A stretch of DNA of 64,000 nucleotides from Pseudomonas sp. ok272 (GTDB lineage: Bacteria > Pseudomonadota > Gammaproteobacteria > Pseudomonadales > Pseudomonadaceae): assembly GCF_900109995.1 (NCBI RefSeq), contig NZ_FOCB01000010.1:1-64000 (forward strand), written 5' to 3'. Positions within the stretch are counted from its first letter, which is position 1. The number at the start of each line of letters is the position of its first letter. This document shows positions 10,781 through 58,910 of this stretch, in pieces. The position numbers and the translations under genes are program-made. A model generated the notes under the pieces. The model was not told the origin of the DNA. It did not search any database and saw only the letters and a program-made list of their open reading frames with translations.

Positions 10781-12067
10781 TTACTGGGCCGCCTTGACGG
10801 CTGAAGCCAGTTGCTTGGCGGTCTTGGCCGGGTCGGCGTCTTTGTCGTTCATGAAGTTGGTCACGACATCGAAGATCGCGCCTTGCACCGCCAGGGACGT
10901 GGCCATGTTGTGCGCCATGCTCGGTTGCAGGCCGCCGGTCTTGTCGTCCGCCAGGAAGTCCTTGGCCGACGCCTGGGCGCAGGCGTCGAAGCCCAGCGCG
11001 CTCATGTCGTCGAGCATGTCGGTACGCACCGGGATCGAGCCTTTGTTGATGCTGAAGACCTTCTGGAAGTCCTTGCCCAGCGCGACCTTGGCCAAGTCCT
11101 GTTGGGCCGCCTGGGTACCGGCGTCCTTGACCTTGAACACCGCCAGGGAGTCGATGTTGTAGGTGAAGGCTTTTTCGGTGCCCGGGAATGGCACGCACTG
11201 GTAGTCCTTGCCGGCGACCTTGTGCGCGGCGGTCCACTCGCTCTTGGCCCAGTCGCCCATCATCTGCATGCCGGCCTTGCCATTGATCACGTCGGCGGCG
11301 GCGATGTTCCAGTCACGCCCGGCGCGGTTTGGGTCCATGTAGCCGGTGAGTTTCTTCAGTTCGGTGAAGGACTTGACCATCTGCGGCCCGGAGAGCGTGT
11401 TCTGGTCCAGATCGACCAGGGCTTTCTTGTAGCCCTCGGCGCCCATGACCGACAGCACCACGTCTTCGAACACGGTGCTGTCCTGCCACGGCTGGCCGCC
11501 ATGGGCCAGGGCGATGAAGCCCGCAGCCTTGAGCTTGTCGCCGGCAGCGTAGAACTCGTCGAGGGTGGTCGGGGCTTTGTCGATACCGGCTTTCTTGAAC
11601 ACCTCGGGGTTGATCCACAGCCAGTTGACGCGGTGGATGTTCACCGGCACGGCGACGTAATCACCTTCGTACTTCACGGTGTCGGAGACTTTCCGGACCA
11701 GCAGGCTGTCCCACTTTTCGTCCTTGGCCACGCCTTTGAGCAGGTTGCTGTCCAACAGGCCGATGCTGGCCCATTCCTGGATGTCCGGGCCCTTGATCTG
11801 GGCCACGCCTGGCGGGTTGCCGGCCACGGCGCGGCTCTTGAGCACGGTCATCGCGGTTGCGCCACCGCCACCGGCGACGGCGCCGTCCTTCCAGGTGAAG
11901 CCGTCTTTTTCGACTTGGGCCTTGAGCACATCGACCGCGGCTTTTTCGCCACCGGAGGTCCACCAGTGCACGACTTCCACGGTGCCTTTGGCATCGGCAG
12001 CAAAAGCGCTCAAGGGAAACAGGGAGGCAACGGAAATGGCAGCCGCGAGGCGAGCAATCGAATTCAT
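10781..12067 (-). CDS. gtsA: glucose ABC transporter periplasmic binding protein
   Basis: Captures glucose in the periplasm for GtsBCD. 428 residues from the ATG at 12067, giving a good signal peptide ([28 protein letters not shown]); the frame is open to 12121 but the extension is charged and would bury the signal. AAAGG lies about 10 nt upstream. The mature protein begins with [20 protein letters not shown], typical of family 1 sugar-binding proteins. First gene of gtsABCD-oprB. Confidence 0.93.
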
Positions 12068-12185
12068 CTGGGAAGTACCTTTCTTGTTGTTATGCATGCA
12101 AGTCTGGTGCTTGCGCTGCAAACGAGTTTAGACAGCGTAGTCCGTGCGGCAGGTAACGAAGCGACGCCGGAATGTCACCGCTTGG

Positions 12186-13445
12186 TTACATCGCCCTTGA
12201 GATAACGCCCTGGGCCAAGGCTGTCGCCATGCTCGGGGCCAGCGGCAAGCGCGGAATCAGCACCGCCTGCCAGGCGTGATAGAGGTCGGGCTTGCCACCC
12301 CAGATCCGCGCGCTGGGACGGTTGTGTTCATCGAGTTCGTGGTGCCAGCTGCCGTGGGCCCGGTCGATCAGGTAGCGCTCGTTGTACGTCCACAGGCGCT
12401 GATACCACACCTGGTACGACGCCAGCCCGGTGCGTTGAAACAAGGCACTGGCCGCCGCGCTCGCCTCGCAATGCACCCAATGCAAGCGCTGGCGCACCAC
12501 GGGGCGGTGGTCCCAATCGAGGGTGTAGACCAGGCCCGGCGCCCCATCGACGGCCCAGGCATGCAGGCTGTTGTTGGCAAACAACGACTGCGCGTCCGTC
12601 AGCAGCCACTCGGGAACCGGCAAGCCGGCCTGCGTCCGCGCCGCCTCCAGGTGCAACAGCAGTCGTGCCCACTCAAACCCGTGGCCCGGCGTGGTGCCGT
12701 AGGGCCGGAAGCCGTCGGCCGGATGGGCGTGGTTGTAGTCCTTGAGCGGTTGCCAGCGCCGGTCGAAATGCTCGACCACCAGGTAGTCGTTGGCGGCCGC
12801 GTGAGCGTGGATGACCCGCTCGACAATCCGCAGGGCGCGGTCCAGCCAGCGGTGGTCCTGGGTCGCATCGGCCAGGGCGAGGAAGGCCTCGGTGGCGTGC
12901 ATGTTGCTGTTGGCACCGCGATAGGCCTCTTCAACACCCCAATCCCGACTGAAGGACTCGCGCATCGCTCCCTCCCCTTCGCTCCAGAAATGCCCCTCGA
13001 TGATCCGGATCGCTTCGTCCAGCAACCCCTGGGCACCGGGTCTGAGGGCAACCACGGCGGAGCTGGCTGCCAGGGCGACAAAGGCATGCAGGTAGGCGGC
13101 CTTGTCGGTGTCGCCCGCGCGGTGCTCAGCAGCGGCGAACCAGCCACCGGACTCGGCGTCACGCAGCGGCCCGAGCAAGGCGCTGACCCCATGATCGACA
13201 AGCTCGGCGTAACCCGCCAGCCCCTGGAGATGGGCCAAGGCGAAACTGTGGGTCATGCGCGCGGTGTTCATGGTCTGGGCGCAGGCCCCGGCCGGCAGTT
13301 GCCCCCGTGCATCCAGATTGCCGAAGCCTTCGGCGAGCGCCGAGGCCTTGGCGAAGTCCAGCAGGCGCAGGCCTTCGTCGGCCAGCCAGCGGTGATGGGC
13401 AGGCGTGTCCAGCCAATGGCGGGAGGTCGATGGGGGAGTGTCCAT
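12186..13445 (-). CDS. AGE-family (N-acylglucosamine 2-epimerase/mannose isomerase-like) protein
   Basis: 419 residues from the ATG at 13445 (AGGT just upstream; the frame is open to 13490). It resembles the (alpha/alpha)6-barrel AGE superfamily, which includes N-acylglucosamine epimerases, cellobiose epimerase and the mannose isomerase YihS. Family-like features are NTARMTHSFALAH near residue 75, a DAESGGWFAA segment, NSNMHATEAFLAL about two thirds of the way to the middle, PGHGFEWARLLL, and the C-terminal LYHAWQA. His residues in MTHS, NMHAT and PGHG match positions commonly near the active site. An equivalent gene sits here in P. putida, so it may convert mannose or another hexose into a form the ED route can use. 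The substrate is not known from sequence. Confidence 0.75.
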   Translation of the reverse strand: MDTPPSTSRHWLDTPAHHRWLADEGLRLLDFAKASALAEGFGNLDARGQLPAGACAQTMNTARMTHSFALAHLQGLAGYAELVDHGVSALLGPLRDAESGGWFAAAEHRAGDTDKAAYLHAFVALAASSAVVALRPGAQGLLDEAIRIIEGHFWSEGEGAMRESFSRDWGVEEAYRGANSNMHATEAFLALADATQDHRWLDRALRIVERVIHAHAAANDYLVVEHFDRRWQPLKDYNHAHPADGFRPYGTTPGHGFEWARLLLHLEAARTQAGLPVPEWLLTDAQSLFANNSLHAWAVDGAPGLVYTLDWDHRPVVRQRLHWVHCEASAAASALFQRTGLASYQVWYQRLWTYNERYLIDRAHGSWHHELDEHNRPSARIWGGKPDLYHAWQAVLIPRLPLAPSMATALAQGVISRAM

Positions 13446-13568
13446 GGTGTACCTGTTTTTGTTGTGATGACGGTGTAGGAGTCTAAACACGCGGGAGGTG
13501 GGTGCAGGTCACGAAGGGGGTGGGGTGTGTCACCGGGCAGTGACATTGGTGTTGAGGCGAGCGGCGCT

Positions 13569-13591
13569 TTCGCGAGCAGGCTCGCTCCCAC
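13569..13591. repeat. solitary REP arm
   Basis: One TTCGCGAGCAGGCTCGCTCC-type arm without a partner nearby, between gtrS and the epimerase gene. Confidence 0.7.
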
Positions 13592-13666
13592 AGGTGACTG
13601 AGCTGCGCCCCATATGTTGGACATTTAAGGGGGTAAGGCTAGGCGGCGAAGAACGATAACGCGGGC

Positions 13667-15139
13667 TCACTGGTCCGCACTGCGCGGCAACTGCAACGTC
13701 ACCCGCAACCCGCCCTCGCGCAGGTTCTGCAGGCTGACTTCGCCGCCATGGCTGTGGGCGATGTTGCGGGCGATCCCCAGGCCCAAGCCATAGCCCTGCT
13801 GCTGGCCGGCCAGGCGAAAGTGCGGCTCGAACACTTGCTCCAGGCGTTGCTGTGGCACGCCTGGGCCTTCGTCATCGACGTGCACGACGAGGGCGTGCTC
13901 ATCGTCTTCGATATGCAGGTGCGCGTTCTGCCCGTACTTGAGGGCGTTGTCGATCAGGTTGCCGATGCAGCGCTTGAGCGCCAGGGGCTTGCCCGGATAG
14001 GCCGCCAGCGCCCGGCCTTGCTGGGTCACACGCCCATTGCCGTTGGGCGCCAGGTAAGGCTCGACCAGGCAATCGAGCACATGATTGAGGTCCACCGGCT
14101 CGATGTTCTCGTGGATGTCGGTGTCCTTGACGCACTGCAACGCGCCCTTGACCAACAACTCCAGCTCATCCAGGTCACGGCCGAACTTCATCTGCAGTTG
14201 CTCGTCCTCCAGCAACTCGACGCGCAATCGCAGGCGGGTGATGGGCGTGCGCAAGTCATGGGAGATCGCGCTGAACAACTGGCTGCGCTCGGTCAGGTAG
14301 CGGCTGATGCGCTCGCGCATGCTGTTGAAGGCGCGGGCCACCTCAACCACTTCGCTACCACCAACCTCCGCCACCGGCTGTACGTCCGCACCCAGCGACA
14401 GGTCCCGGGCCGCCCGCGCCAGACGCTTGAGCGGCCGGCTTTGCCAGTGCACCAGCAGGCCAATGAACAGCAACAGGAAACTGCTGGTGAGCAGGATGAA
14501 CCACACTTGCTGCGACGGCAGGCCCTGTTCTTCAAGGCTGGTGTAGGGCTCGGGCAACAACGACGCGATGTACAGCCATTCGCCCTCGCTCAGTTTGATC
14601 TGGGTCACCAGCACCGGCGGGTTGATCGGTTCCAGGGTCAGGGCGTAGTGCGCCCAGGAGCGCGGCAGTTCGTCCAGCTTCAAGCCACTGTTGAAGATGC
14701 GCAGGTCATCGGGGCTGACGAAGTTCACCGAGATATCGGTCGTCGCCCCCAGCGACTGGCGCAGCACGTCATCCACCGCCGCCAGCACCGCCTGCTTGCG
14801 CGGGGTGGGGGGCAGCAATTGCATGTCCAGGGGTTTGTCGTTGAGGGTCACCACAAACCGGGTGCCGCCCATGCTGCGCAGTTGGTCGAGGACCATCGGC
14901 CGATAGGCCACGGGCAGCGAGCGAAAGTAGCTGACGCTGGCCGTCATCGAATGGGCCAGGCTGCGGGCGGCGGTGACCAGCCCTGCGAGTTGGGTGGCGC
15001 GCAGTTGCGAGACCCAGATCACGCTGGACAACGCCTGGGCGAACAACACCGCCAGCAAGGTCAGCAGCAACATGCGCCCCAAGAGCGAACGCGGCACCGG
15101 CACCTTGCGGATCAACCGCCTGATCACCTCAGCGGCCAT
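13667..15139 (-). CDS. gtrS: sensor histidine kinase of the glucose-responsive two-component system
   Basis: 490 residues. TM1 at about 20-45, a periplasmic sensor region to about 210, TM2 near 212-231, HAMP to ~285, then the dimerisation/phosphoacceptor motif SAISHDLRTPITRLR (His about 294) and an HATPase_c domain with NLIDNALKYG (N-box) and DEGPGVP (G1). Its start overlaps the end of gltR by 11 nt. In pseudomonads GtrS/GltR control the gts/oprB glucose uptake genes and respond to 2-ketogluconate or 6-phosphogluconate. Context and domain order fit well. Confidence 0.92.
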   Translation of the reverse strand: MAAEVIRRLIRKVPVPRSLLGRMLLLTLLAVLFAQALSSVIWVSQLRATQLAGLVTAARSLAHSMTASVSYFRSLPVAYRPMVLDQLRSMGGTRFVVTLNDKPLDMQLLPPTPRKQAVLAAVDDVLRQSLGATTDISVNFVSPDDLRIFNSGLKLDELPRSWAHYALTLEPINPPVLVTQIKLSEGEWLYIASLLPEPYTSLEEQGLPSQQVWFILLTSSFLLLFIGLLVHWQSRPLKRLARAARDLSLGADVQPVAEVGGSEVVEVARAFNSMRERISRYLTERSQLFSAISHDLRTPITRLRLRVELLEDEQLQMKFGRDLDELELLVKGALQCVKDTDIHENIEPVDLNHVLDCLVEPYLAPNGNGRVTQQGRALAAYPGKPLALKRCIGNLIDNALKYGQNAHLHIEDDEHALVVHVDDEGPGVPQQRLEQVFEPHFRLAGQQQGYGLGLGIARNIAHSHGGEVSLQNLREGGLRVTLQLPRSADQ

Positions 15140-15860
15140 TGCCGGCGACCACGTTGGCCGCCAGTTGGTAGCCGCTGCCGCGCACGGTGCGGATCAACCG
15201 CGCCGGCTTCTCGGTGTCACGCAGGCGCTGACGCAGGCGGCTGACGGCCATGTCGACGATCCGGTCCAGCGGCATCAGGTCACGGCCACGGGTGGCGTTG
15301 CCGATGGTGTCGCGGTCGAGGATTTGCTGGGGGTGATCGAGGAATAGCTTGAGCAGGGCGAAGTCGGCGCCGGAGAGAATCACTTCCTCGCCGTCGGTGT
15401 GGAACAGCCGGTGGCTGACCATGTCCAGGTGCCACTCATCGAAGGCCAGCACCTCGCCACCGCTGCGCTCCTGACCGAACTGGGCCCGGCGCAACAAGGC
15501 CTTGATCCGCGCCTGCAACTCGCGCGGGCTGAAGGGCTTGCCCAGGTAATCGTCGGCGCCCAGTTCCAGGCCAATCACCCGGTCGGCCTCATCGGAACTG
15601 GCGGTGAGCATGATGATCGGCACGCAGGCCTGGCGCGGGTGTTGGCGGATCCAGCGGCACAAGCTGAAACCGTCCTCGTCCGGCAGCATCACGTCCAGGA
15701 TCACCAGGTCGCTCGACGCCTCGTTCAACGCCTGGCGAAACCCCGCGCCATCGGGCGTGGTGCGTACCTGGAACCCGGCTCGGCTCAGGTAGGTGTCCAG
15801 CAACTCGCGTATCTCTTGATCGTCATCGACCAATAAAATCGACTTGTTGACTGCGCTCAC
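15129..15860 (-). CDS. gltR: OmpR-type response regulator of glucose transport
   Basis: 243 residues from the GTG at 15860 (VSAVNKSILLVDDDQ), preceded by AAGGAC. The frame is open to 15986, but that extension is translated REP sequence and is spurious. Receiver domain with acidic pocket LVDDDQ and phospho-acceptor Asp in VILDVMLPDEDG, plus Lys in LGKPFSPREL; the C-terminal winged helix has VSRLRQRLRD and a TVRGSGYQL end. It regulates gtsABCD and oprB in P. putida and P. aeruginosa. Confidence 0.93.
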   Translation of the reverse strand: MSAVNKSILLVDDDQEIRELLDTYLSRAGFQVRTTPDGAGFRQALNEASSDLVILDVMLPDEDGFSLCRWIRQHPRQACVPIIMLTASSDEADRVIGLELGADDYLGKPFSPRELQARIKALLRRAQFGQERSGGEVLAFDEWHLDMVSHRLFHTDGEEVILSGADFALLKLFLDHPQQILDRDTIGNATRGRDLMPLDRIVDMAVSRLRQRLRDTEKPARLIRTVRGSGYQLAANVVAGNGR

Positions 15861-15936
15861 TGGGTGGCGTCCTTGTTGTGATGAGTGGGGCGGATCATGC
15901 CTTAAACAGCGCATCGACAAACACTGCACAGACCCT

Positions 15937-16021
15937 GTGGGAGCGAGCCTGCTCGCGAAGCGTCCTGTCAGCCACCGTGTATTCACTGGATGGACACCTT
16001 CGCGAGCAGGCTCGCTCCCAC
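15937..16021. repeat. REP pair between glk and gltR (85 bp)
   Basis: GTGGGAGCGAGCCTGCTCGC and its inverted partner around ~40 bp, of the GAGCCTGC subtype, in the intergenic gap downstream of glk. Confidence 0.88.
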
Positions 16022-16034
16022 ACTGAACGGCATT

Positions 16035-16994
16035 TCAGGTCGGGATTGATTGCTCCAACGCCACGCCCGCGCCGGTCAGCCCGGAGTATGGCGCCGTCAC
16101 CAACCACACTGGAATGCCGGCGAAATACTCGCTCATACATCCCTTGTCGGCAAAGCAGCGGGCGAAGCCGCTTGCCAGGAACAACTCGGCGAACCGCGGA
16201 ATCACGCCACCGACGATGTACACACCGCCGCGCGCGCCCGTGGTCAACACGTTATTGCCGGCTACGCGCCCCAGCCAGCAACAGAACTGCTCCAGCACCT
16301 CCAGGGCCACCGGGTCGCCCGCCAGCGCCGCGGCGGTGATCGCCTCCGGGGTATCGAGCACCGGCCGGTGCCCGTCCACCGCACAGATCGCCCGGTAGAC
16401 CCGCGGCAATCCTGCCCCGCTAAGGGCAGTCTCGGCGCTGACGTGGCCCATCTCCGCGTGAAGGTGCTGCCACAGTTGGGTTTCTCGCGGGTGGCTCAGC
16501 GGCAGGTCGACATGCCCGCCCTCGCCCGGCAGTGCGGCCCAGCGGCCCTCGCCAAGATCGAGCAACGTGCCGACCCCCAAGCCGGTGCCGGGGCCCATCA
16601 CCACCGCCGGGCACAGCGGCTGCGGCGTGCCTTCGCACACCACGCGGAACTCGCCCGGCTGCAGGCGGGTCATCCCCAGGGCCATGGCCGAGAAGTCGTT
16701 GACCAGCAGCAGCCGCTCGACCTGCAAGGCCTGGCAGAACGCCCGGCGACTGAGGCGCCAGTGATTGTTGGTGAAGCGAAACTCATCGCCGCTGACGGGG
16801 CCCGCCACCGACAGGCACACCGCACCGATGGCGCCGAGGGCCAGGCCTTGCGCCTTCAGATACACCGCAATGGCGTCTTCCGGGCAGGCAAAGTCAGCGG
16901 TCGCCAACACCTGGACCGACGCCAGTTGCTGGTCTTTCCACACGGCAAAACGGGCATTGGTGCCACCGATGTCACCGACCAGCGCTAACGTCAC
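16035..16994 (-). CDS. glk: glucokinase
   Basis: Phosphorylates glucose with ATP to glucose-6-phosphate. 319 residues, Glk family length. N-terminal phosphate-binding motif [12 protein letters not shown], catalytic region with [19 protein letters not shown], and [11 protein letters not shown]. Translation starts at a GTG (16992-16994) that overlaps the edd stop as GTGA, so it is coupled to edd. Confidence 0.95.
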
Positions 16995-48967: not shown

Positions 48968-49588
48968 TCAACGCACCACGATCATCGCCGCCGCGACCGC
49001 CATGACTGCCGCCGCGCCCCGGAACAATCGCCGTTGCGCCCGTTGCCCCGACAGCAGGTGACGGATACGCACGGCGGCGAAGATGAACAGCGCGCCGACG
49101 CCCAGCAACACCAGGATCGTCAGCGGCACCAGGACCAGCGCCCAGGTGTGCAGCGAGACCGTTTCCAGGTTGATCGCCAGCGGCAGCAACGCCAGGTAGA
49201 AGGCGATGGTCTTCGGGTTACCCAGGGTGATGGTCAGCCCTGAAACCGCCGCCGACAGCAGCTCCGTCTTCTTCACCGGCCGGTCCATGTCGATCGCCTG
49301 ATGGTCGGCGCGCCAGAACTGCCAGGCCAGGTAGCCCAGGTACAGCGCGGCGCCCCAGCGCACCACGTGAAACAGCGCCTGGAAGTGCTCGGCAATCATC
49401 GCCAGGCCAAACACGGCAAAGGAGAGGTAGGCCAGGTCCCCCAGGATCAAGCCCGACAACAGGCAAAAGCCCGACAACGTGCCGCCACTGACGCTGCGTG
49501 CAACCAGCGCCGCCATGCCAGGACCGGGAATGGCGGCAGCGATGCCCAGGGCGATCGAGTAGGTGAGTGCTTGTGTCAGATCGAGCAT
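48968..49588 (-). CDS. LysE-family amino-acid exporter
   Basis: 206 residues, about six membrane helices: AALGIAAAIPGPGMAALVAR near the N-terminus is the LysE signature region (PGP), and SGLTITLGNPKTIAFYLALLP is the conserved fourth-helix motif. Probably exports an amino acid or derivative. It is divergent from an Lrp/AsnC regulator 386 bp away, a common exporter-regulator pairing. Confidence 0.9.
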   Translation of the reverse strand: MLDLTQALTYSIALGIAAAIPGPGMAALVARSVSGGTLSGFCLLSGLILGDLAYLSFAVFGLAMIAEHFQALFHVVRWGAALYLGYLAWQFWRADHQAIDMDRPVKKTELLSAAVSGLTITLGNPKTIAFYLALLPLAINLETVSLHTWALVLVPLTILVLLGVGALFIFAAVRIRHLLSGQRAQRRLFRGAAAVMAVAAAMIVVR

Positions 49589-49643
49589 GGGGTGTCCCTT
49601 GGTGGATTGATCGAAGGCCTATGCGCCTTCACTTGACGGCTGG

Positions 49644-49857
49644 CTACTTGAACAACGCCAGGTTGCCGATCAGCGTGCGGATGGTTTTCTGTGTCCCGAT
49701 CAAGCCGATGGCCAGCCGTCCGATGGCCGAACTCTCGGCCTCGGAGATCCAGCCCCAGGTCGCTATCGACCACGATCACGCACTTGTGAACCGCCGCATC
49801 AAAAATCATCTGCCCCCCGCTACCGCGCGCCAAAAGCCCTTGGAACTTCAACGGCAA
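49644..49857 (-). pseudogene. possible gene remnant between LysE and Lrp genes
   Basis: On the minus strand one frame ends in a protein-like stretch (SEAESSAIGRLAIGLIGTQK... to LALFK and TAG at 49644-49646), interrupted upstream by TGA, while a neighbouring frame carries MIFDAAVHKCVIVVDSDL. A frameshift around 49760 would join them. The homologue is unknown and this may be chance, so treat it as tentative. Confidence 0.25.
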
Positions 49858-49935
49858 ACGCCTTGAAGTGGGAAAAATACTACGCGCTTCACCCAGGATT
49901 ATTTTGTCTATGTTGATTGCCAGACATGCATAAAT

Positions 49936-49950
49936 AGGTAGAACCTACCT
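49936..49950. promoter_or_regulatory. inverted repeat before the Lrp/AsnC gene, candidate operator
   Basis: AGGTAG-AAC-CTACCT is a perfect 6-3-6 palindrome 24 bp upstream of the regulator start, in the divergent region with the exporter. Lrp-family proteins often bind such repeats for autoregulation. Confidence 0.5.
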
Positions 49951-49974
49951 CCATTCAAATAAAAAGTGGAATTT

Positions 49975-50472
49975 ATGACCGGACCAGCCCTCAGCCTGAC
50001 AGACATCAATATCCTCACCGCCCTGCAACAGGACGGTAGGGTCACCAACCAGACCCTGGCCGATCAGCTCGGCATGTCGGCCTCACCGTGCTGGCGACGG
50101 GTCAAGCAGTTGGAGGAGCATCGCTACATCCTGGGTTACCGCGCGGTGTTGGACCGACGCAAGATCGGCTTGGGCGTGATGGTGTTCGTGCGGGTCAGCA
50201 TTGACCGCCACAGCGAAGCCGAAGCACGCAAGTTCGAGCAAGAGGTCATGCAGTTGGAGGACGTGGTGGCGTGCTACAGCATCGGTGGCGACGCCGATTT
50301 CCTGCTGCAAGTGGTGGCCCGCGACCTGGACGCCTACGCCGAGTTTTCCATGACCGTGGTGCGGCGATTAACCGGGATCAAGGAAATGCAGAGCATGTTC
50401 GTGCTCAAGGAAATCAAGCCCTTCATCGCGTTCCCGGTCAAGCAGCCCCCGGTGACAACCGAGGGCCGTTGA
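49975..50472 (+). CDS. Lrp/AsnC-family transcriptional regulator
   Basis: 165 residues from the ATG at 49975; a GTG at 49966 is an alternative. Winged HTH (LTDINILTALQQDGRVTNQ, then LADQLGMSASPCWRRVKQLE) and a C-terminal RAM effector domain (VMVFVRVSIDRHSEAEARKFEQ...). Probably controls the divergent LysE exporter in response to an amino acid. It ends 9 bp before the convergent enolase-superfamily gene. Confidence 0.92.
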   Translation: MTGPALSLTDINILTALQQDGRVTNQTLADQLGMSASPCWRRVKQLEEHRYILGYRAVLDRRKIGLGVMVFVRVSIDRHSEAEARKFEQEVMQLEDVVACYSIGGDADFLLQVVARDLDAYAEFSMTVVRRLTGIKEMQSMFVLKEIKPFIAFPVKQPPVTTEGR

Positions 50473-50481
50473 GCACGGGGG

Positions 50482-51606
50482 CTAGCGCGCGACGCTCAAG
50501 TGGATATCGGCACCGCGCTGGATCTGCTGCCAATCAATCTGCAGCCCCAGCCCTGTGCCATCCGGCGCGGTCACTTGCCCTTGCCGGTTGGTGCGGATCG
50601 GGTTGGCCGTGGCGAACTCGAACAGCTCGACCTCGCAGGCCTGCTCGAAGTAGCTGCACACCGGCTGCCCCAGCATCAGGTGCAGGTTGGCCGCTTGCGC
50701 CAAGGAGTGCCCCCAGCTTTGCAACTCGACCTTGATCCCGCTGGCGGCCGCGTGATGGATGATCTTTAGCGCAGGCGTGATCCCGCCGCAGGTCATCACA
50801 TCCACACGCACTCGGCTCCAGCACTGTTGGCTGGCTGCGAATGCCACCAGTTGGTGGTCAGTGATCGCATTGCCCGCCGCCAGCACCGGTACGTCGAGCC
50901 GGGCGCTCAACTGCCGATAGCCCGCCAGGTCGTAGTCATCCAGCGGCGCTTCGAACCAGGCGTAATCCAACTCGCCCAGTACCCGCCCGACTTTCAGCGC
51001 GGCGTCCAGGTCGTAGCGTTGCTCGACATCCAACATCAAGGCCAAGCCCTTGTCCCCATGGGCCCGTTGCACCTGCTCAATCAATCGCAGGTCGCGCGCC
51101 GGGTCGCACCAGCAATGAAACTTGATCGCGCGAAACCCTTGCTCGACCAGGTGCTGCACGGTCTCGACATAGGCCTCGGGCGTTGCCAGTACTGGCGTGC
51201 TGGCGTAAGCGTCGATGCGCTCGCGGTAGCCGCCGAGCAACTTGAACAACGGCTGCCCGGCCGCCTGCGCGGCGATGTCCCACAGCGCCACATCGATCAA
51301 CGCCTGGGCCTGGGCCGAGCGGGCGTAGGCCTTGGGCCGCAAGTGCGACCACAGCCCTTCGCGCTCCAGGGCCGAGCGCCCCAGCAGGTCGGGGATCATG
51401 TCGCGCAGGGTCTCGGCCAGGACCGCGTCGGCGTGATGGCTGGTGTAGGAGTCCGTCGCCGCGACGCCTACGATGCCATCCCGGGTGGTGACCCGGATAA
51501 AGGTGTGGGTCGTGCAGGGTTCGGGCTGCTCCGGGGTCCAGGTCGAGCCGCGCACCGGCGGTACGCAGGCGAACACCTCGACCCGGTCGATCAAAAGGTT
51601 GGTCAT
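50482..51606 (-). CDS. enolase-superfamily enzyme (mandelate racemase/muconate lactonizing-like) I
   Basis: 374 residues: N-terminal capping domain (1-125) and TIM barrel (about 130-350). Visible active-site candidates are K162 and H164 in AIKFHCWCD, metal ligands D193 (MLDVEQRYD) and E219 (FEAPL), and D269-like Asp before CGGIT. The third metal ligand, normally Glu in a GE motif, appears as N246 in VLAAGNAITD, so metal binding may differ. It is the last gene of a BCCT transporter/enolase/enolase operon, 15 bp after the second enzyme. Likely a dehydratase or epimerase of a hydroxy acid; the substrate is not readable. Confidence 0.82.
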   Translation of the reverse strand: MTNLLIDRVEVFACVPPVRGSTWTPEQPEPCTTHTFIRVTTRDGIVGVAATDSYTSHHADAVLAETLRDMIPDLLGRSALEREGLWSHLRPKAYARSAQAQALIDVALWDIAAQAAGQPLFKLLGGYRERIDAYASTPVLATPEAYVETVQHLVEQGFRAIKFHCWCDPARDLRLIEQVQRAHGDKGLALMLDVEQRYDLDAALKVGRVLGELDYAWFEAPLDDYDLAGYRQLSARLDVPVLAAGNAITDHQLVAFAASQQCWSRVRVDVMTCGGITPALKIIHHAAASGIKVELQSWGHSLAQAANLHLMLGQPVCSYFEQACEVELFEFATANPIRTNRQGQVTAPDGTGLGLQIDWQQIQRGADIHLSVAR

Positions 51607-51621
51607 TGGTCTCTCCCAGGT

Positions 51622-52743
51622 TCAAGGCCGTACGCGATAGCGTTCGATCAGGGCTTCGTCCAGGACCACGCCCAGGCCCGGGGTATCCGGCACCGCGACA
51701 TGACCGTCTTCAAGGGGCAGCAGGTTCTTCACCAGGCCCCGGAACAGCGGGCTGTCGCTTTGCGAGTACTCGATCAACTCACCGAACTCACTGGCCGCCA
51801 GAAAGTGCACAGTGGCCGCCAGCAGGATCCCGGTGCTGAAACCGTGGGGCACCAGTTGCGCGCCGTGCAATTGCGCCAGCTCATAGATGTGGCGCATCTC
51901 GCTGATGCCACCGCAGCGGGTGATGTCCGGCTGGATGATCGCCGGGCGCGAGGCCTCCAGGAAGTGGCGGAACTCATGCCGCGTCGCCAACCCTTCGCCG
52001 CCGGACACCCGCAGCCCGGAACGCTCGGCCAGGTGCGCCAGGCCTCGCGTGTCGTCGGACGGCAACGGTTCTTCGATCCAGTTCAGTTTGAACTCGCGCA
52101 GCGCCTCGCATTGCGCCAACGCGTGCGGGTAGTTGCGCCAGCGCCCCACCAGGTCGATCTGCAACTGCACGTCATCGCCGATCTCCTCGCGCACGACCCG
52201 CAGCAGCTCACGGTCCTTGCGCAGGTCTTCGCCAAACCCGGCACCGCCCAGCTTGATGCTGCGCAAGCCCTGGGCCAGCAGGCCGCGGACCAGCTCGCGG
52301 TTGCCGGCCTCGTCGGGACGCGGGATGAACGTGCCGTAGGCGGCGATGCGCGTGCGGTACTTGCCGCCCAGCAAGGTGTGCACCGGCACCCCGTAATGCT
52401 GCCCGGCGATGTCCCACAGGGCGATGTCCAGTGCGCTGATGGCATGGATCGCCGCGCCGCGCCGGCCCATGTACTCGGACTGGCGGTACATCTTCTTCCA
52501 CAGCCGGTCGATTTCCAGCGGGTTTTCACCGATCAGCAGGTCGCGCAGGCCCTGGCAGGTTTCATGGGACGCCGGGGTTTCGATCAAGGCCTTGACCACG
52601 GCCGGCGAGCTGTCGGTTTCACCGATACCCACGAGGCCAGTGTCAGTGTGGATGCGCACGATCAACGCATCCTCGCCCCACTCACATGGCTGGTCGAGCG
52701 CCGGCACGCGCAACCAGATCGCTTCTACATCCACTATTTTCAT
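51622..52743 (-). CDS. enolase-superfamily enzyme (mandelate racemase-like) II
   Basis: 373 residues. Metal ligands D197 (LQIDLVGRW), E224 (WIEEPL) and E250 (SGGEG) are all present. K164 (SIKLGG) is a candidate base and D273 ([10 protein letters not shown]) with H300 (VPHGFS) forms the His-Asp dyad of the mandelate-racemase subgroup, suggesting acid-sugar dehydration or racemisation. Its start overlaps the stop of the BCCT gene as ATGA. Only distantly like its neighbour, so the pair probably does successive or alternative steps. Confidence 0.86.
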
Positions 52744-54365
52744 GGCTGGGTTTCCAGGACTTTCGAGGCACCCTGACGGACCACGGATCGCGCTTGATTG
52801 ACCTCGGCGGTGCTCATCGCCGCCAGGCGCGCGGACTGCTCTTCAATCAAGTGGGCCGGCATGGCCGCGTAGTCTTCACGCAGCCACTTGAGCAGGCCCC
52901 AGATCTTCACTATCAGGATAAAAATGAACGGGATCGCAGTGAGGATCACGGCGGTCTTGAGGGTGTTGAGGGAGGCGTTGATGTACAGCATCGCCAGCGG
53001 CAGCACCGCCAGCATCAGGCACCAGAACAGGCGCAGGTTGGGCGACGGGTCCTGGCCTTCACGCAGGTTGCGGGTACTGGTAGCCGCCACGGTGTAGGCC
53101 ACCGCATCCAGGTGGGAAGCGAGGAACACCAGCATCAGCAGGAAGTACACCACCGACAGCAACTTGCCAAACGGCAGGCTGGTCAACAGCATCGAGACCG
53201 CCGCCTCACCGCCGGCCCCACTGAGCATGGCCGGCGCGTTGACCAGGTCCGTGACGAACTGGTGAATGGCAAAGCTCTGCAAACTGCCGAAGAAGAACCA
53301 GCACCCGCCGCAGCCGCCGAGGATCATCGCCAGCACCACTTCCTTGATCGTGCGGCCCTTGGACACACGGGTGACGAAGATCGCCACGCCCGGGGTGTAG
53401 GTGATCCAGTACAGCCAGTAGAACACCGTCCAGCCACGGGAGAATTCGCCATCCCCGGTCGGGTCGGTGAACAGACTCATGTGGATGAAGTTTTGCAGGG
53501 TCAGGCCAATCGCGTTGGCGATGTTGTTGACGCTGAACAGGGTCGGACCGAGGACCAGCACGATCAAGGCAAAGACCATGGTCATGCCGCACGCCAGCTT
53601 CGCCAGGCGCTGCATGCCGGAGCTGATGCCGATGTAGGAACTCAGGGAAAACACCACCGTCACCAGCAGCACCAGGCACGCCTTGAGCATGAAGCCGTCG
53701 GTGATGCCGGTCAGGTCCGACAGGCCCTTGGCCACGGTGGACGTGGTCAGGGTGGTGGTCAGCACCAGGCCGCCGAAGGTGGCGAATAGGAAGATCAGGT
53801 CGATGATCCGCCCGACCGGGCCGTGGGCCTTGAAGCCGGTGATCGACTCAATGATGCCGGCCAGGCTCAGGCCTTTGTTCTTGCGCACGTGGAAGTGATA
53901 CGCCATCGCCAGCGACGCAATGCCGTAGATCGCCCACGGGGTGATGCCCCAGTGGAAGAACGAATAGGCGATGCTCATTTCCAGCGCTTGCTTGCTCGCG
54001 GCGGCGATGTTCAGCCCCGGCGTGAGGTAGTAATACGCCCACTCCATGAAGGCCCAGTACATGGTCGCCGACCCCAGGCCCGCGCAGATGAACATGAAGA
54101 TCCAACTGGTGTTCTTGTACTCCGGCTTGCCCTCGCCCAGGCGAATGTTGCCGTACTTGCTAAAGCCCAGGCCGATGATCAGCACCACACAGGCAAAGCC
54201 GAGCACCTGCACCAGGGTGCCGAAGGTAGAGGTCGCGCTGGTGAAGAGTTGATCGGCCAGCACCTTGGCCTGATCGGGAAACATCATCAATCCGATGACC
54301 GTCATTGATATCACCACGATGCTGGTGAATATCAGGGTCAGGTCTTTCTGCGTGTTCTGCTGCAT
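52740..54365 (-). CDS. BCCT-family (betaine/carnitine/choline) transporter
   Basis: 541 residues from the ATG at 54365; a TTG at 54377 is possible. Twelve membrane helices. The BCCT tryptophan region is [19 protein letters not shown] followed by [10 protein letters not shown]. The substrate-site segment [18 protein letters not shown] resembles carnitine transporter CaiT more than the glycine-rich GMGIG segment of Na+-coupled BetP, so it may move carnitine-like compounds or another trimethylammonium acid. First gene of the operon, divergent from a LysR regulator. Confidence 0.9.
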
Positions 54366-54487
54366 AGGGAGTCCCAACTATTGTAATTATTGGAGAGACC
54401 CCGTCTTGGCGGGATCTGCGGCTACTGTAAGCTGGCGTCCTGCGCCGAGAGAATCGCGTTTTGGTAATGGACTAATAACGAAGTCTT

Positions 54488-55396
54488 ATGAATAAATTCA
54501 CCGAACCGTTCGCCCTGACCCGCCTGCCGCACATGACCTTGCTGCTGGCGTTCAAGACCGTGGCCGAGCAAGGCAGCTTCACCCGGGCGGCGACCGTGCT
54601 GCACTTATCGCAGTCGGCCGTCAGCCAGCAAGTGGTCAAGCTGGAGGAAGCCCTGGGCGTGGTCCTGTTCGCCCGCTCGACCCGCACCGTCACCTTGACC
54701 AAGGCCGGCGCAGGACTGCTGCAGGATATCGGCGCGCCGTTCGAGCAACTGCTCAGCGCGTTTGAAAAGTGCGCCCGGCAGACCGCACCGCCAGTGCTGC
54801 ACATCGAGGCGGAACCGGTGATGAGTGCATTCTGGCTGACCCCGCGCCTCAAGCATTTCACCCAACGCTTCCCCGCCCTGCGCATCCAGCAACTGTTGAG
54901 CACCCAGCGCGTCGAGTTCCCTGACGGGGTCGAGCTGGCGATCAAGTGGGGAACGGCCGAATGGCCAGGCTTCGACGCCGAGTTCCTGATGGGCCTGAAC
55001 TACGCGCCGATGTGTTCGCCGTCCTTGCTCGATGGGCTGCGCGTACCGGCCGACCTGGCGCACCAGGCGCTGCTGCACGACCGGCATTATCACGACTGGG
55101 AAAGCTGGCAGGCGCTGTACCCCACGCCGGGGCTTGAGGTGCGCAGCGGCCACGTCGTCACCGACTCCAACGTCCTCGCCCAACTGGCCATCGAAGGCCA
55201 CGGCGTGGCGCTGTGCGCGATCGAGTTGACCGAACGCGCGGTGCGCAATGGCGAGTTGGTCCTGCCCTTCCCCGACATGCTCATGCCGCACCCACTCGCC
55301 TACTACCTGCTGACGCAGCCGCAACGGGGCGTCAGTGAAATGACCCGTCAATTCATTGCCTGGCTCAGGGAAGAGGCGGCGGCCCTCAGCAGTTGA
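54488..55396 (+). CDS. LysR-type transcriptional regulator (GcvA-like)
   Basis: 302 residues. N-terminal HTH with LLLAFKTVAEQGSFTRAATVLHLSQSAVSQQV (split here: first part, then LHLSQSAVSQQ as recognition helix). The substrate domain includes HIEAEPVMSAFWLTPRLKHF and ELAIKWGT, which resembles the GcvA/AmpR subgroup. It is divergent from the BCCT-enolase operon (122 bp) and presumably its activator. Confidence 0.92.
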   Translation: MNKFTEPFALTRLPHMTLLLAFKTVAEQGSFTRAATVLHLSQSAVSQQVVKLEEALGVVLFARSTRTVTLTKAGAGLLQDIGAPFEQLLSAFEKCARQTAPPVLHIEAEPVMSAFWLTPRLKHFTQRFPALRIQQLLSTQRVEFPDGVELAIKWGTAEWPGFDAEFLMGLNYAPMCSPSLLDGLRVPADLAHQALLHDRHYHDWESWQALYPTPGLEVRSGHVVTDSNVLAQLAIEGHGVALCAIELTERAVRNGELVLPFPDMLMPHPLAYYLLTQPQRGVSEMTRQFIAWLREEAAALSS

Positions 55397-55411: not shown

Positions 55412-56068
55412 TCACCCCGCGCGACCCTGCCTATCACCGGACGTCAAGCCCGACAACAGCAGCCGGATGTCGCGGCGCACGAGGATAAGGGTGTCGGCGG
55501 TCAGGGCTGTGTCCGAGCACGCCAGGCTGCGGAAATGGAAGGCATAGATCGCGTAGACGACATCGATCAGCGCCTCGATGTCCACGCTTGCGGCGAACGT
55601 GCCACGGGCCACATACGCCTCAATCGCCAGCTTCAACGACGCCTTGAAACGATTGCGCGCCTGGCCGATCTGGGCGTGCTCTTCCACCGCAAACAACATG
55701 GCCGCCAGCAGTTCGCGCCATAGGCGTTTGTCTTCGAGCGTGTCCATGTCGCCATAGTCGGCGGCGATCATGTCGACGAACGCCTCTCGTGGGTCTTCCG
55801 GCAATGCGTTCACCACCTGGCTCACCGCCTCCTGGGCCAGCGCCACCTGGTTCTCGATGATGGCGATCAGCAAGGTGTGCTTGTTCGGGAAGTAGTTGTA
55901 CACCGTGGTCACGCCGGATTCAGCGACGGCAGCGATGTCTTCCATGCGCGTGTGCGTGAAACCGCGCTCGCGAAACAGTTCGATCGCAGTGTTGATCAGC
56001 AACTGGCGAAACTTTTCTTTTTTTCGCTCGCGCAGCGATGGCGCGGGGTGGTTCGGGTGGGTGGGCAT
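55412..56068 (-). CDS. TetR/AcrR-family repressor
   Basis: 218 residues from the ATG at 56068, with GGAG 5 nt upstream; GTG at 56074 is less likely. N-terminal HTH: LLINTAIELFRERGFTHTRM then EDIAAVAESGVTTVYNYFPNK. The C-terminal ligand domain is not diagnostic. Divergent from the binding-protein/esterase operon, with a perfect palindrome between them (56142-56157). It is therefore probably the local repressor. Confidence 0.9.
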   Translation of the reverse strand: MPTHPNHPAPSLRERKKEKFRQLLINTAIELFRERGFTHTRMEDIAAVAESGVTTVYNYFPNKHTLLIAIIENQVALAQEAVSQVVNALPEDPREAFVDMIAADYGDMDTLEDKRLWRELLAAMLFAVEEHAQIGQARNRFKASLKLAIEAYVARGTFAASVDIEALIDVVYAIYAFHFRSLACSDTALTADTLILVRRDIRLLLSGLTSGDRQGRAG

Positions 56069-56141
56069 AGTCACTCCAGGGCTTGGGGCCGATGGCCGGC
56101 ATTCTAGCGAATGTCGGACAGATATGGGCTCATCATTAAAA

Positions 56142-56157
56142 ATGTAGTTGACTACAT
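56142..56157. promoter_or_regulatory. 16-bp palindrome, probable TetR operator
   Basis: ATGTAGT-TG-ACTACAT is a perfect 7-2-7 inverted repeat in the 141-bp divergent region, 74 bp upstream of the TetR start and 52 bp upstream of the binding-protein gene. Size and position are typical of TetR-family operators that control both directions. Confidence 0.75.
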
Positions 56158-56209
56158 AATTGCACTCAAATACTTTTTAGCCACCCTCACCATTGAGATC
56201 GCTCGGGTT

Positions 56210-57298
56210 ATGAACAGACTCACACTGCTATTTGGCATTGCCATCGCTGTCACTGCGTCGATCAGTTCGGCCGCACCGCAACAGGTACGAATCTTCAACT
56301 GGTCCGAGCTGATCGGGCAGAACACGCTCAAGGACTTCCAGGACCAGACCGGGATCCAGGTCCAGTACGACACCTTCGACAACGAGTCGACGCTGCAGGT
56401 GAAACTGCTCACCGGCAACAGCGGCTATGACGTGGTGGTGCCCTCTGGCTCGTCGCTGGATCAACTGATCACGGCCGGCGCCCTGGCCGAACTGGACCGC
56501 AGCAAGCTGCCCAACTGGAAGAACCTCGACCCCGAGCTGATGCAGTTCGTCGAAGGCAAGGACCCGGGCAATCGCCACGCCTTCATCTATGACTGGGGCA
56601 CCACTGGCCTGGGCATCAACCAGGACCTGATCAAAGCGCGCATGAGCGACGCGCCACTGGACTCCTACGACCTGCTGTTCAAGCCCGAGGTGGTCAGCCG
56701 CTTCAAGGATTGCGGGGTCGGGATCATCGACAGCCCGGAAGACGTCTACCCGATCGTGCTCAATTACCTGGGGCTGGACCCGCAACAGCCGACACAGGAG
56801 AACCTTGCCAAGGCCAACACGCTGCTGGAGGCGATCCGGCCCAACCTGCGCTATATCAACTCGGGCAGCTACATCAACGACCTGGCCAACGCCAACATTT
56901 GCCTGATGCTGGGCTGGTCGGGCGATGTCGAGATCGCCGGGCGCCGCGCCCAGGAAGCCGGCAAGAACGACCACATCCGCTACATCGCACCACGGGAAGG
57001 CACTTCGGCCTGGTTCGGCTTCATGGCCATGCCCAAGGGGGCGCCCAATCCCGAGGCGGCCTATCGCTTCATGAACGAGATCCTCGAGCCACGGGTCAGC
57101 GCCGACTTCACCGCCACCGTCGGCTACGCCAACGCCGTGCCAGCCAGCCTCGCGCTGTTGCCCGAAGCCGTCGCACAGAACCCTACGATATTTCCCAGCC
57201 AGGCGGTGCGCAGCAAAATGTTCTGGCAGTCCAATCCGACCGCCACCGACCTGCGCCTGATGACCCGCGCCTGGAACCGCTTCAAGAGCGGCCTCTGA
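56210..57298 (+). CDS. PotF-like polyamine-type periplasmic binding protein
   Basis: 362 residues from the ATG at 56210; the frame is open to 56111 but that would run through the operator. Signal peptide about 1-21 (NRLTLLFGIAIAVTASISSA-AP). The mature start VRIFNWSELIGQNTLKDFQ is typical of PotF/PotD, with YDVVVPSG and a C-terminal region rich in the fold's usual aromatic residues. No permease or ATPase genes adjoin, so it works with a distant transporter, scavenges, or is a signalling protein. Confidence 0.88.
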   Translation: MNRLTLLFGIAIAVTASISSAAPQQVRIFNWSELIGQNTLKDFQDQTGIQVQYDTFDNESTLQVKLLTGNSGYDVVVPSGSSLDQLITAGALAELDRSKLPNWKNLDPELMQFVEGKDPGNRHAFIYDWGTTGLGINQDLIKARMSDAPLDSYDLLFKPEVVSRFKDCGVGIIDSPEDVYPIVLNYLGLDPQQPTQENLAKANTLLEAIRPNLRYINSGSYINDLANANICLMLGWSGDVEIAGRRAQEAGKNDHIRYIAPREGTSAWFGFMAMPKGAPNPEAAYRFMNEILEPRVSADFTATVGYANAVPASLALLPEAVAQNPTIFPSQAVRSKMFWQSNPTATDLRLMTRAWNRFKSGL

Positions 57299-57314
57299 CC
57301 TTAAGGAAACTGCA

Positions 57315-58910
57315 ATGGCATTCACCTCCACTCACCCGGCCACGGTCCACACCGAGCAAGGCTCGCTGCGCGGTGCCTTCGACGCAACCTGCGGCCTGCA
57401 CGGCTTCTTCGGTATTCCCTACGCCGAACCGCCACTGGGCGCCCTGCGCTTTCGCCCACCGCAGGCCCATCGCGGTTGGACCGGGGTGCGCGCCGCCGAG
57501 CGCTTCGGCTGCGCGTCGGCCCAACTCTTCGACTCGACCGAGGGCGAGTTCTGCGAGTTCAGCGACAGCGAAGCCGTCGAGGGGCAGCCGTGGGTCGGCG
57601 CCGAAGATTGCCTGACCCTGAACGTCTGGACGCCCTCGGTGGGCCCGGTTAAAAGACCGGTCATCGTGTGGATTCATGGCGGCGCCAACTGGCTGGAGAG
57701 CAGCCGCTTGAAGTGCTACCACGGTGACGTGCTGGCCAAGACCGGGGACGCGGTGTTCGTCTCGTTCAATTACCGGCTGGGGGTGTTCGGCTTCCTCGAT
57801 GTCAGCGTGCTGGGCGACGACTCCTACGCCGGCGCCCACTCCCACGGGGTGCTCGATCAGCTCGAAGCGCTGCGCTGGGTGCGGCGCAACATTCAAGCGT
57901 TCGGCGGCGACCCGCAGAACATCACGCTGATGGGCGAGTCCGCCGGCAGCATCGACATCAGTTGGCTGCTGGCCGGCGGGCACCTGGGCGGGCTGGTCAA
58001 GCGCGTGGTGATGATGAGCGGCTATGCCGGCCTGCCCGGCCTGAGCGGCGACATTCGCGAAGGGCTCAGCGACGCCAGCGCGGGCGAGCTCGCACGCCAG
58101 TTCTTCGCCGATTGCGCCATCGACAGCGTCGAGCAACTCCAGCAGATGAGCACCGCGCAGGTGATGATGAAGGTGCACCACCTCGCTGAGTCCTCGGACA
58201 TGCTGTTTCGCATGGACGCACTGTTTTGGCCCAAGACCTGCGCCCACTCATCGCCCGTGGACCCGATCGCGTTCGCCGAACAGGGCCGGGCGACCGGGAT
58301 CGAGGTGATGATCGGCTTCACCCACTATGAAATGGGCCTGTGGCTGAACTGGGACGAGACCCTGGATCACCTGGGCCTGGACCGCATGGTCGAGCGCCTG
58401 GACATCATCCCGCCCGCGCTCAAGGACGCCGCCAAGGCCTTGTACCGCCAGACCTTCCCCGACGAAGACGAAGGCCAGCGCGCCATGCACCTGCTGGGCG
58501 ATTGCGTGTTCGTCATGCCATCGTTGTGGGCGGCCGAGGGCCTGTCCAAGGGTAACGCGGTCAAGGTCTATCGCTTCGACCGCGAGACCGACCCCCGCCG
58601 CCGCGCCCAGCATGCGGCGGACCAGGTCTATTTCTTCGGCAAGCTCGACACCTACGTCGGCCGACTGCTGGCGGGAACCCCACGCGATGACGCCGAACAG
58701 GTCGAGCGCGAGGCATTGGCGAGCCTGATGCAAGGGCTGATCCTCAGCTTCGCCGGCGCTGCTGCAACGGACTCTGCGGCGTACCGCGACTGGGTTGGCT
58801 ACGACGGTGAGTCACGCACGCTGCTGGCGCTGGATACCCAGCCACAGATGCTCAGCGACCCATACCGTCAGCGGCGGGCGTGGTGGTTTGAGCACATCTA
58901 TCGTGGCTGA
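57315..58910 (+). CDS. carboxylesterase (type B, alpha/beta hydrolase)
   Basis: 531 residues. Type B signatures: EDCLTLNVW at 97-105, oxyanion hole HGGAN at 121-125, and the nucleophile elbow GESAG with Ser209. No signal peptide is evident, so it is probably cytoplasmic. It lies 16 bp after the PotF-like gene with AAGGAA RBS, so the two are co-transcribed and TetR-controlled. Linking uptake of a cationic amine with ester hydrolysis suggests an ester- or amide-conjugated amine substrate, which is inference. Confidence 0.88.
   Translation: MAFTSTHPATVHTEQGSLRGAFDATCGLHGFFGIPYAEPPLGALRFRPPQAHRGWTGVRAAERFGCASAQLFDSTEGEFCEFSDSEAVEGQPWVGAEDCLTLNVWTPSVGPVKRPVIVWIHGGANWLESSRLKCYHGDVLAKTGDAVFVSFNYRLGVFGFLDVSVLGDDSYAGAHSHGVLDQLEALRWVRRNIQAFGGDPQNITLMGESAGSIDISWLLAGGHLGGLVKRVVMMSGYAGLPGLSGDIREGLSDASAGELARQFFADCAIDSVEQLQQMSTAQVMMKVHHLAESSDMLFRMDALFWPKTCAHSSPVDPIAFAEQGRATGIEVMIGFTHYEMGLWLNWDETLDHLGLDRMVERLDIIPPALKDAAKALYRQTFPDEDEGQRAMHLLGDCVFVMPSLWAAEGLSKGNAVKVYRFDRETDPRRRAQHAADQVYFFGKLDTYVGRLLAGTPRDDAEQVEREALASLMQGLILSFAGAAATDSAAYRDWVGYDGESRTLLALDTQPQMLSDPYRQRRAWWFEHIYRG

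Follow-up and report, generated by a model that had tools for sequence, protein, structure and literature searches.

A candidate catabolic cassette for a hydroxylated carnitine-like zwitterion, combining a BCCT transporter with two enolase-superfamily enzymes, in Pseudomonas sp. ok272

The first 64,000 nucleotides of contig NZ_FOCB01000010.1 of Pseudomonas sp. ok272 (assembly GCF_900109995.1; host genome 5.29 Mb in 50 contigs), referred to here as the window, contain a LysR-type regulator gene beside genes for a BCCT transporter and two different enolase-superfamily enzymes, E1 and E2. The question raised by this locus is which compound such a combination would take up and break down. An initial annotation of the DNA had described a self-contained catabolic module with a carnitine- or betaine-type transporter, for which no known pathway came to mind apart from hydroxyproline-betaine epimerisation. 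The module and its type of transporter are supported by gene order, by the adjacency of BCCT and E1 genes and by the transporter clade, and no pathway joining BCCT with mandelate racemase or enolase and carnitine or betaine was found described in the open-licence PMC literature, as judged from search listings. The parts are of known kinds; their combination and the reaction proposed for them are undescribed in that literature. We propose, as an even call, that the genes act together in the catabolism of a hydroxylated carnitine-like zwitterion, which would be taken up and then undergo elimination by E1 and E2.

All four open reading frames (ORFs) of the initial annotation were recovered with unchanged coordinates, and the Pfam and NCBIfam families agreed (Table 1). 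The gene overlaps it had reported hold for BCCT and E1, which share four bases (ATGA), and not for E1 and E2, which are separated by a 15-base gap. The BCCT ORF could start at TTG 54377; the aligned upstream regions indicate that the alternative ATG 54362 is most likely the true start. The BCCT matches PF02028 (402 bits), both enzymes carry PF02746 and PF13378 (MR_MLE_N and MR_MLE_C) above the Pfam cutoffs, and the regulator has an HTH_1 and a substrate domain by Pfam, with the GcvA and DsdC types as its nearest NCBIfam models, both under their cutoffs. Orthologues of the regulator with 65–85% identity occupy the same place in seven other E1 loci. In the control region, ATAAG followed by TKATNARTCCATTA was present in seven of eight aligned loci, L010 being one base off in the second part. 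An inverted-repeat operator was considered for this region and rejected, as no inverted repeat of 8 or more bases was found in the three of the eight aligned regions examined.

Table 1. Features of the cassette, in window coordinates
Feature	Position	Strand	Remark	Basis
LysR-type regulator, 302 aa	54488..55396	+	divergent from BCCT gene	ORF call, Pfam, NCBIfam
LysR/BCCT shared control region	54363..54487			alignment of 8 loci
BCCT transporter, 540 aa	52740..54362	-	YeaV/A. baumannii carnitine-transporter group, Tyr318	Pfam, NCBIfam, trees
E1, mandelate-racemase-type enolase-superfamily enzyme, 373 aa	51622..52743	-		Pfam, NCBIfam, PDB search, alignment
E2, second and different enolase-superfamily enzyme, 374 aa	50482..51606	-		Pfam, NCBIfam, PDB search, alignment

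The order LysR/BCCT-E1-E2 is conserved in five further loci, four from Pseudomonas (L010, L014, L015, L016; L014 is from Pseudomonas helleri DSM 29165) and one (L027) from genome G076, which belongs to the same family as the window under another genus code. Among 21 non-window E1 loci, compared within the stretches fetched, BCCT adjoins E1 in 17, the exceptions being L019 (on a 4.8 kb contig), L026, L041 and L042. Because the order is kept in five other loci and BCCT adjoins E1 in so many, the grouping of these genes is not due to chance.

The second enzyme is more variable. E2 accompanies E1 in six of the 21 loci (L010, L011, L014, L015, L016, L027), a UxaA/GarD-type dehydratase pair does so in 11 (L020–L025 and L038–L042; the small Uxa subunit of L024 is a SAF-domain protein located after BCCT), and four have neither (L017, L018, L019, L026). 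E2 and the pair were found together in none of the 21 loci within the fetched stretches; they occupy the same place beside E1 in different hosts. The large subunit, UxaL, carries GD_AH_C and GD_AH_second, the domains of galactarate and altronate dehydratases, and its sole PDB match at 0.001 was galactarate dehydratase 6u7l. The presence of two enzymes of the E1/E2 kind, noted in the initial annotation, is not intrinsic to the module: L017 and L018 have BCCT and E1 with no adjacent second enzyme of E2 or UxaA type, and six loci described below have an E2-type gene and BCCT with no adjacent E1. Across the whole genomes of L017, L018, L019, L024 and L026 no E2 match exceeded 33% identity, and the best one may be E1; three of the five had no E2 match at 1e-30. 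UxaL matches at 1e-20 were present in eight of 12 genomes. Those outside Uxa loci included a 62% match in G1277, with EamA and GntR genes and without E1, a 37% match in Desulforhopalus near sulfatase-like and tripartite-transporter-like genes (by eye) and, in the genomes of Roseateles and Burkholderia, UxaA-type genes of about 34%; E1 loci without an adjacent partner may therefore have one elsewhere. At L072:9002-12020, where E1 is absent, a UxaA-type gene has EamA transporter and GntR genes as neighbours.

The transporter provides the first indication of the substrate. The BCCT passes the YeaV equivalog model NF007412 (835 bits; cutoff 647) and is 57.7% identical to Escherichia coli YeaV, 56.3% to a Klebsiella, 52.6% to an Acinetobacter baumannii and 50.9% to a Psychrobacter (pP32BP2) protein. 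All four of these genes adjoin carnitine-monooxygenase genes, as annotated in E. coli and A. baumannii and as judged from gene content in Klebsiella and Psychrobacter. The CaiT-like segment of the initial annotation is correct as to family, although the identity to CaiT is no more than 26%, against 58% for YeaV. From its carnitine-transporter annotation and its place in the cntA operon we take the A. baumannii protein for Aci1347, which is reported to transport carnitine and, at a lower rate, choline (PMC6562126; PMC11353897).

Two BCCT trees were built, from 28 and 24 of 31 rows (30 fetched and the window). L022, L023 and L025, near relatives of L020, were omitted from both, and the second was also without the host's second BCCT, the second MPC6 BCCT and both L044 rows; the tree program warned of long branches, CaiT foremost. 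A 12-row clade (100/100) united eight E1-linked rows of the window type, from Pseudomonas-type, Roseateles and Burkholderia loci (100/99), with four carnitine rows of the CntAB type (93/92 and 94/93). The E1-linked BCCTs of the Photobacterium type, of Alkalibacter and of Psychrobacter urativorans branch outside this clade. The window BCCT groups with the YeaV/Aci1347-type carnitine transporters, which suggests a carnitine-like substrate.

The window BCCT retains ten residues in and around the aromatic box (W107, E111, Y114, W142, W147, Y150, W316, Y320, W324 and Y327 in CaiT numbering), and four others are changed (V104 to T, R262 to A, W323 to Y318 and M331 to V). Among 31 proteins, with the L073 BCCT outside the counts, position 323 was Tyr in 22 of 24 enolase-linked BCCTs and Trp in all seven others. 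W323 of CaiT is described as closing off the empty site and as changing its orientation upon binding, part of which is questioned by data in the same paper (PMC6406002). The best solved match to the BCCT (336 bits) was the dimethylsulfoniopropionate (DMSP) transporter DddT, whose Trp320 aligns with this position in the PDB-search alignment. That residue is reported to be essential for transport and also to move (PMC13270143). The cassette resembles the CntAB carnitine operons (E. coli yeaUVWX, A. baumannii) in transporter clade, LysR regulator and compact catabolic organisation; unlike them, it has enolase-superfamily enzymes in place of the Rieske monooxygenase and a BCCT with Tyr, not Trp, at position 323.

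The chemistry of the enzymes was approached through their active sites. The E1 group comprised every row with more than 53% identity to E1 (22 including the window) and the E2 group every row above 36.4% to E2 (12 including the window). L013, at 36.4%, was excluded by name for its lack of a nearby BCCT and its different active site (His kept, Tyr as third ligand), and the fused reading frame of L029 (35.6%) was dropped from the alignment. In E1, K164xG166, D197, E224, E250, D273 and H300 were invariant in 22 of 22 rows, as was the loop motif W22-G-E-D25, giving three acidic metal ligands and a strand-7 His-Asp dyad throughout. In E2, K162xH164, D193, E219, N246, D269 and Q296 were invariant in 12 of 12, with Asn as the third metal ligand and Gln replacing the strand-7 His; a Trp at the site of the E1 loop was present in 11 of 12 and missing in the Psychrobacter sequence. 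Glucarate dehydratase, too, has an Asn as its third metal ligand. The two bases of mandelate racemase are H297/D270 (here H300/D273) and the second Lys of KxK. This two-base site is conserved in neither enzyme, E1 having KxG and E2 no strand-7 His. Since E1 keeps the first base only and E2 only a His at the second-base site, the simplest reading is that each uses a single base to catalyse an elimination (as a dehydratase or lyase), the two being stereo-complementary and acting from opposite faces. Reactions of the superfamily are reported to include beta-elimination (PMC6946804).

The same residues bear on hydroxyproline-betaine epimerisation, the model raised initially, by which E1 and E2 would be a racemase or epimerase pair. 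The shared superfamily and the betaine-type transporter are consistent with it. Hydroxyproline-betaine 2-epimerase HpbD is an enolase-superfamily betaine enzyme and a two-base epimerase; the PDB codes known to us for it were not among the best 60 of 89 matches of E1 or the best 60 of 65 of E2. A superfamily epimerase employs two bases (PMC5808125), whereas every E1 row has Gly at the second KxK position and every E2 row lacks the strand-7 His. The epimerase reading was rejected on these residues; it is weakened further by the dehydratase-type gene pair that holds E2's place in other loci, and we consider it highly improbable.

The nearest named NCBIfam families of E1 were the galactonate, gluconate/galactonate, arabinonate and talarate/galactarate dehydratases, all under cutoff (178–198 bits; cutoffs 311–750). 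Against the galactonate (cutoff 311), talarate/galactarate (500), arabinonate (650) and mannonate (550) dehydratase models, E1 scored 198, 178, 188 and 142 bits and E2 scored 85, 134, 93 and 100; both also missed the cis-3-hydroxy-L-proline dehydratase model NF043002 (cutoff 500), with 61 and 71 bits. The closest PDB entry was 3sjn for E1 (1e-144, among the best 60 of 89 matches) and 4jhm for E2 (1e-79, among the best 60 of 65). Their molecule names carry no function, and no relevant paper for either was found in the open-licence PMC literature. With the sugar-acid dehydratases of the mandelate racemase subgroup (galactonate, arabinonate, talarate/galactarate) E1 shares the D/E/E ligands and the His-Asp dyad; unlike them, it scores under the cutoffs, has the invariant WGED motif and stands beside a betaine-type transporter.

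E2-type enzymes were also found in a second setting. Six loci (L012, L028, L043, L044, L045, L073) have an E2-type gene with a flavin adenine dinucleotide (FAD) enzyme, BCCT and a GntR-family gene, the last identified from the annotation in L012 and through Pfam in the remaining five. Photobacterium proteolyticum (L020) carries an extra E2-type gene (37%) adjoining an FAD enzyme and BCCT elsewhere in its genome, so one genome can hold both systems. The FAD enzyme gave 38 weak PDB matches, the best at 2e-4 and most over the FAD-binding part only. Its relatives (PF12831) were present in 25 plasmid records, of which five were examined, besides one Vibrio record. As side observations, such relatives adjoin an IlvD/EDD dehydratase gene in Indioceanicola, with a short one in Rhizobium, and genes for a coenzyme A (CoA) transferase and an enoyl-CoA hydratase in Glaciihabitans, Rhodococcus and Methylobacterium; at L076, L077, L078, L079 and L080 (five of 25 records) the neighbour resembles a dehydrating enzyme of varying fold. 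The E2/FAD cluster of L044 is flanked at 11041-16235 by a pair of BCCT genes and by an enolase of a third type. This enolase, 34% identical to E1 and with a W-S-E-N loop as in PDB 3mqt, represents another BCCT-linked family.

In the proposed route, the LysR protein would presumably sense a hydroxylated carnitine-like zwitterion, and the BCCT symporter, as a carnitine-transporter relative with an altered gate residue, would import it. E1, with Mg2+ on D197/E224/E250, would remove the proton next to the carboxylate through the H300-D273 dyad and then expel the beta-substituent, either OH or the amine itself, to yield a 2-keto acid. E2 would catalyse the same chemistry on the other stereoisomer of what may be a common substrate, probably with an opposite-face base (KxH) because its strand-7 His is lost; in other hosts a UxaA/GarD-type dehydratase occupies the position of E2. 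As for the substrate class, the transporter clade points to a carnitine-like compound. UxaA-type enzymes act on 2-hydroxy acids with a leaving group at C3, and these partners, together with the families nearest to E1, suggest an acid of this kind. The two clues overlap in 2,3-dihydroxy-4-trimethylammoniobutyrate ('2-hydroxycarnitine', anthopleurine type), which is for that reason our leading guess. Anthopleurine is taken here to have this structure. A review names it as a sea-anemone pheromone and mentions its synthesis by dihydroxylation (PMC6270930).

Several observations weigh against this proposal. Both exceptions at position 323 (N and W) come from L044, many of the 22 Tyr rows are near relatives, and at least two changes on the tree, one of them inside the YeaV-like clade, suffice for the contrast, which is thus a lead and not proof. 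The Polaromonas enzyme of L013 lies with tripartite-transporter genes and no BCCT nearby, that of L029 has no BCCT match nearby, and both resemble E2 to roughly the same degree as the FAD-linked enzymes do. The host also has, at L086:9082-11236 on contig 11, a homologue that shares 68% identity with A. baumannii CntA; it adjoins a 2Fe-2S reductase gene, and this contig holds neither host BCCT gene. Given this homologue and an only other host BCCT that is 27% identical to the window's, the latter may simply carry carnitine.

By such a plain carnitine route, free carnitine would be turned into crotonobetaine without CoA, E1 dehydrating one enantiomer and E2 the other. This agrees with the BCCT's place in the carnitine-transporter group, with the CntA homologue and with three plasmid records in which FAD-enzyme relatives adjoin genes for a CoA-transferase and an enoyl-CoA hydratase; in L078 and L079 this transferase belongs to the CaiB family, in the third record to a different one. 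However, the UxaA/GarD partners and nearest enolase families act on 2-hydroxy acids, of which carnitine is not one, and the gate residue is unlike that of CntAB-linked carnitine transporters. No crotonobetaine-processing gene was recognised beside E1, by eye from unannotated ORF starts, a procedure that is poor in GC-rich loci. We regard the carnitine route as unlikely.

In two E1-UxaA loci BCCT's place is taken by an EamA transporter gene, in L041 by Pfam and in L042 by a similar EamA-like gene judged by its start, which would suit acid-sugar dehydratases merely lying next to a BCCT of broad or shifted specificity. That the best named families are sugar-acid dehydratases is in keeping with this, and YeaV is reported to influence how pantothenate, kynurenate and a number of further compounds are taken up, among them carnitine when YeaV is overexpressed (PMC10971958). 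It is made quite unlikely by the adjacency of BCCT and E1 across proteobacterial groups and Alkalibacter, by the separate linkage of E2 to BCCT in six further loci and by the aromatic box retained in the BCCT.

L017 and L018, where E1 is the only enzyme, suggest a product of immediate use to the host, and amine release would fit this better than formation of 2-keto-4-trimethylammoniobutyrate; as a counterpoint, other UxaA-type genes (34%) are present elsewhere in those genomes. Formation of pyruvate and trimethylamine from a 2-hydroxy-3-onium acid would be favoured by these BCCT-E1-only loci and by a Psychrobacter plasmid cassette of regulator, E2, E1 and BCCT alone. Both are explained if the reaction is beta-elimination of an onium group (a trimethylamine or dimethyl sulfide lyase) from 2-hydroxy-3-trimethylammoniopropionate, DMSP or beta-alanine betaine, and the match to DddT is compatible with this. 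But DddT is further from the window BCCT than YeaV is, no acrylate genes were recognised beside E1 (by eye only), and we know of no 2-hydroxy-3-onium propionate among natural products. Such a lyase appears improbable.

Relatives of the proposed cassette for a hydroxylated carnitine-like zwitterion were rare and scattered in the genome samples searched, for which E-value limits differed. E2 was found in two of 298 genomes from the host's family (1e-60) and three of 398 from the phylum (1e-50), each including the host itself, and E2-type enzymes in four of 146 from one further family (1e-60). E1 was found in one of 274 genomes from the class, the host only (1e-90), and in five of 295 from another order (1e-80). 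The E1 scan gave 13 genome loci, three from Pseudomonas, five from Photobacterium and the others from Roseateles, Burkholderia, a Rhodospirillales metagenome-assembled genome, Alkalibacter and Desulforhopalus. Two relatives are on Antarctic plasmids: the conjugative Pseudomonas plasmid pMPC6-328K carries a close copy (94% identity for E1, 88% for E2), and a plasmid of Psychrobacter urativorans carries GntR-E2-E1-BCCT (61% and 43%). The cassette is apparently mobile. Recent acquisition as judged by base composition was rejected, the GC content of the cassette (0.639) showing no contrast with that of the window (0.624). Separately, L010:1-37122 on pMPC6-328K is a catabolic island with a second BCCT, a ring-hydroxylating oxygenase, aldehyde dehydrogenases, an oxidase-like three-gene set and a further enolase.

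On one side of the cassette, 55412-58910 holds a TetR gene (-) and genes for a PotF-like binding protein (+) and a carboxylesterase (+), a group that looks like an unrelated unit. On the other, 48968-50472 holds a divergent pair, a LysE-type exporter and an Lrp/AsnC regulator, the regulator gene ending 9 bases from E2. Both flanks were rejected as members, no similar ORF being found among those picked from 16 other loci (blastp 1e-20, more than 32% identity, 60% length; ORF picking is poor in GC-rich loci).

A more specific reading, which is tentative, is that the cassette encodes a CoA-free, O2-free, one-step breakdown of a hydroxylated quaternary-ammonium acid by enolase-superfamily enzymes, with two stereo-complementary enolases and a UxaA/GarD-type enzyme that can replace one another in a mobile cassette, the candidate substrates being 2-hydroxycarnitine/anthopleurine or a 2-hydroxy-3-onium acid. 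The cassette connects two enolase families that have solved structures (3sjn and 4jhm) but, to our knowledge, no assigned function with a transporter clade, and gives them testable substrates. If the reading is true, it would be the first case of an enolase-type enzyme acting on a betaine as dehydratase or lyase. It would also add a bacterial route, independent of oxygenase and CoA chemistry, for the turnover of hydroxylated quaternary ammonium compounds, and may represent a new source of trimethylamine.

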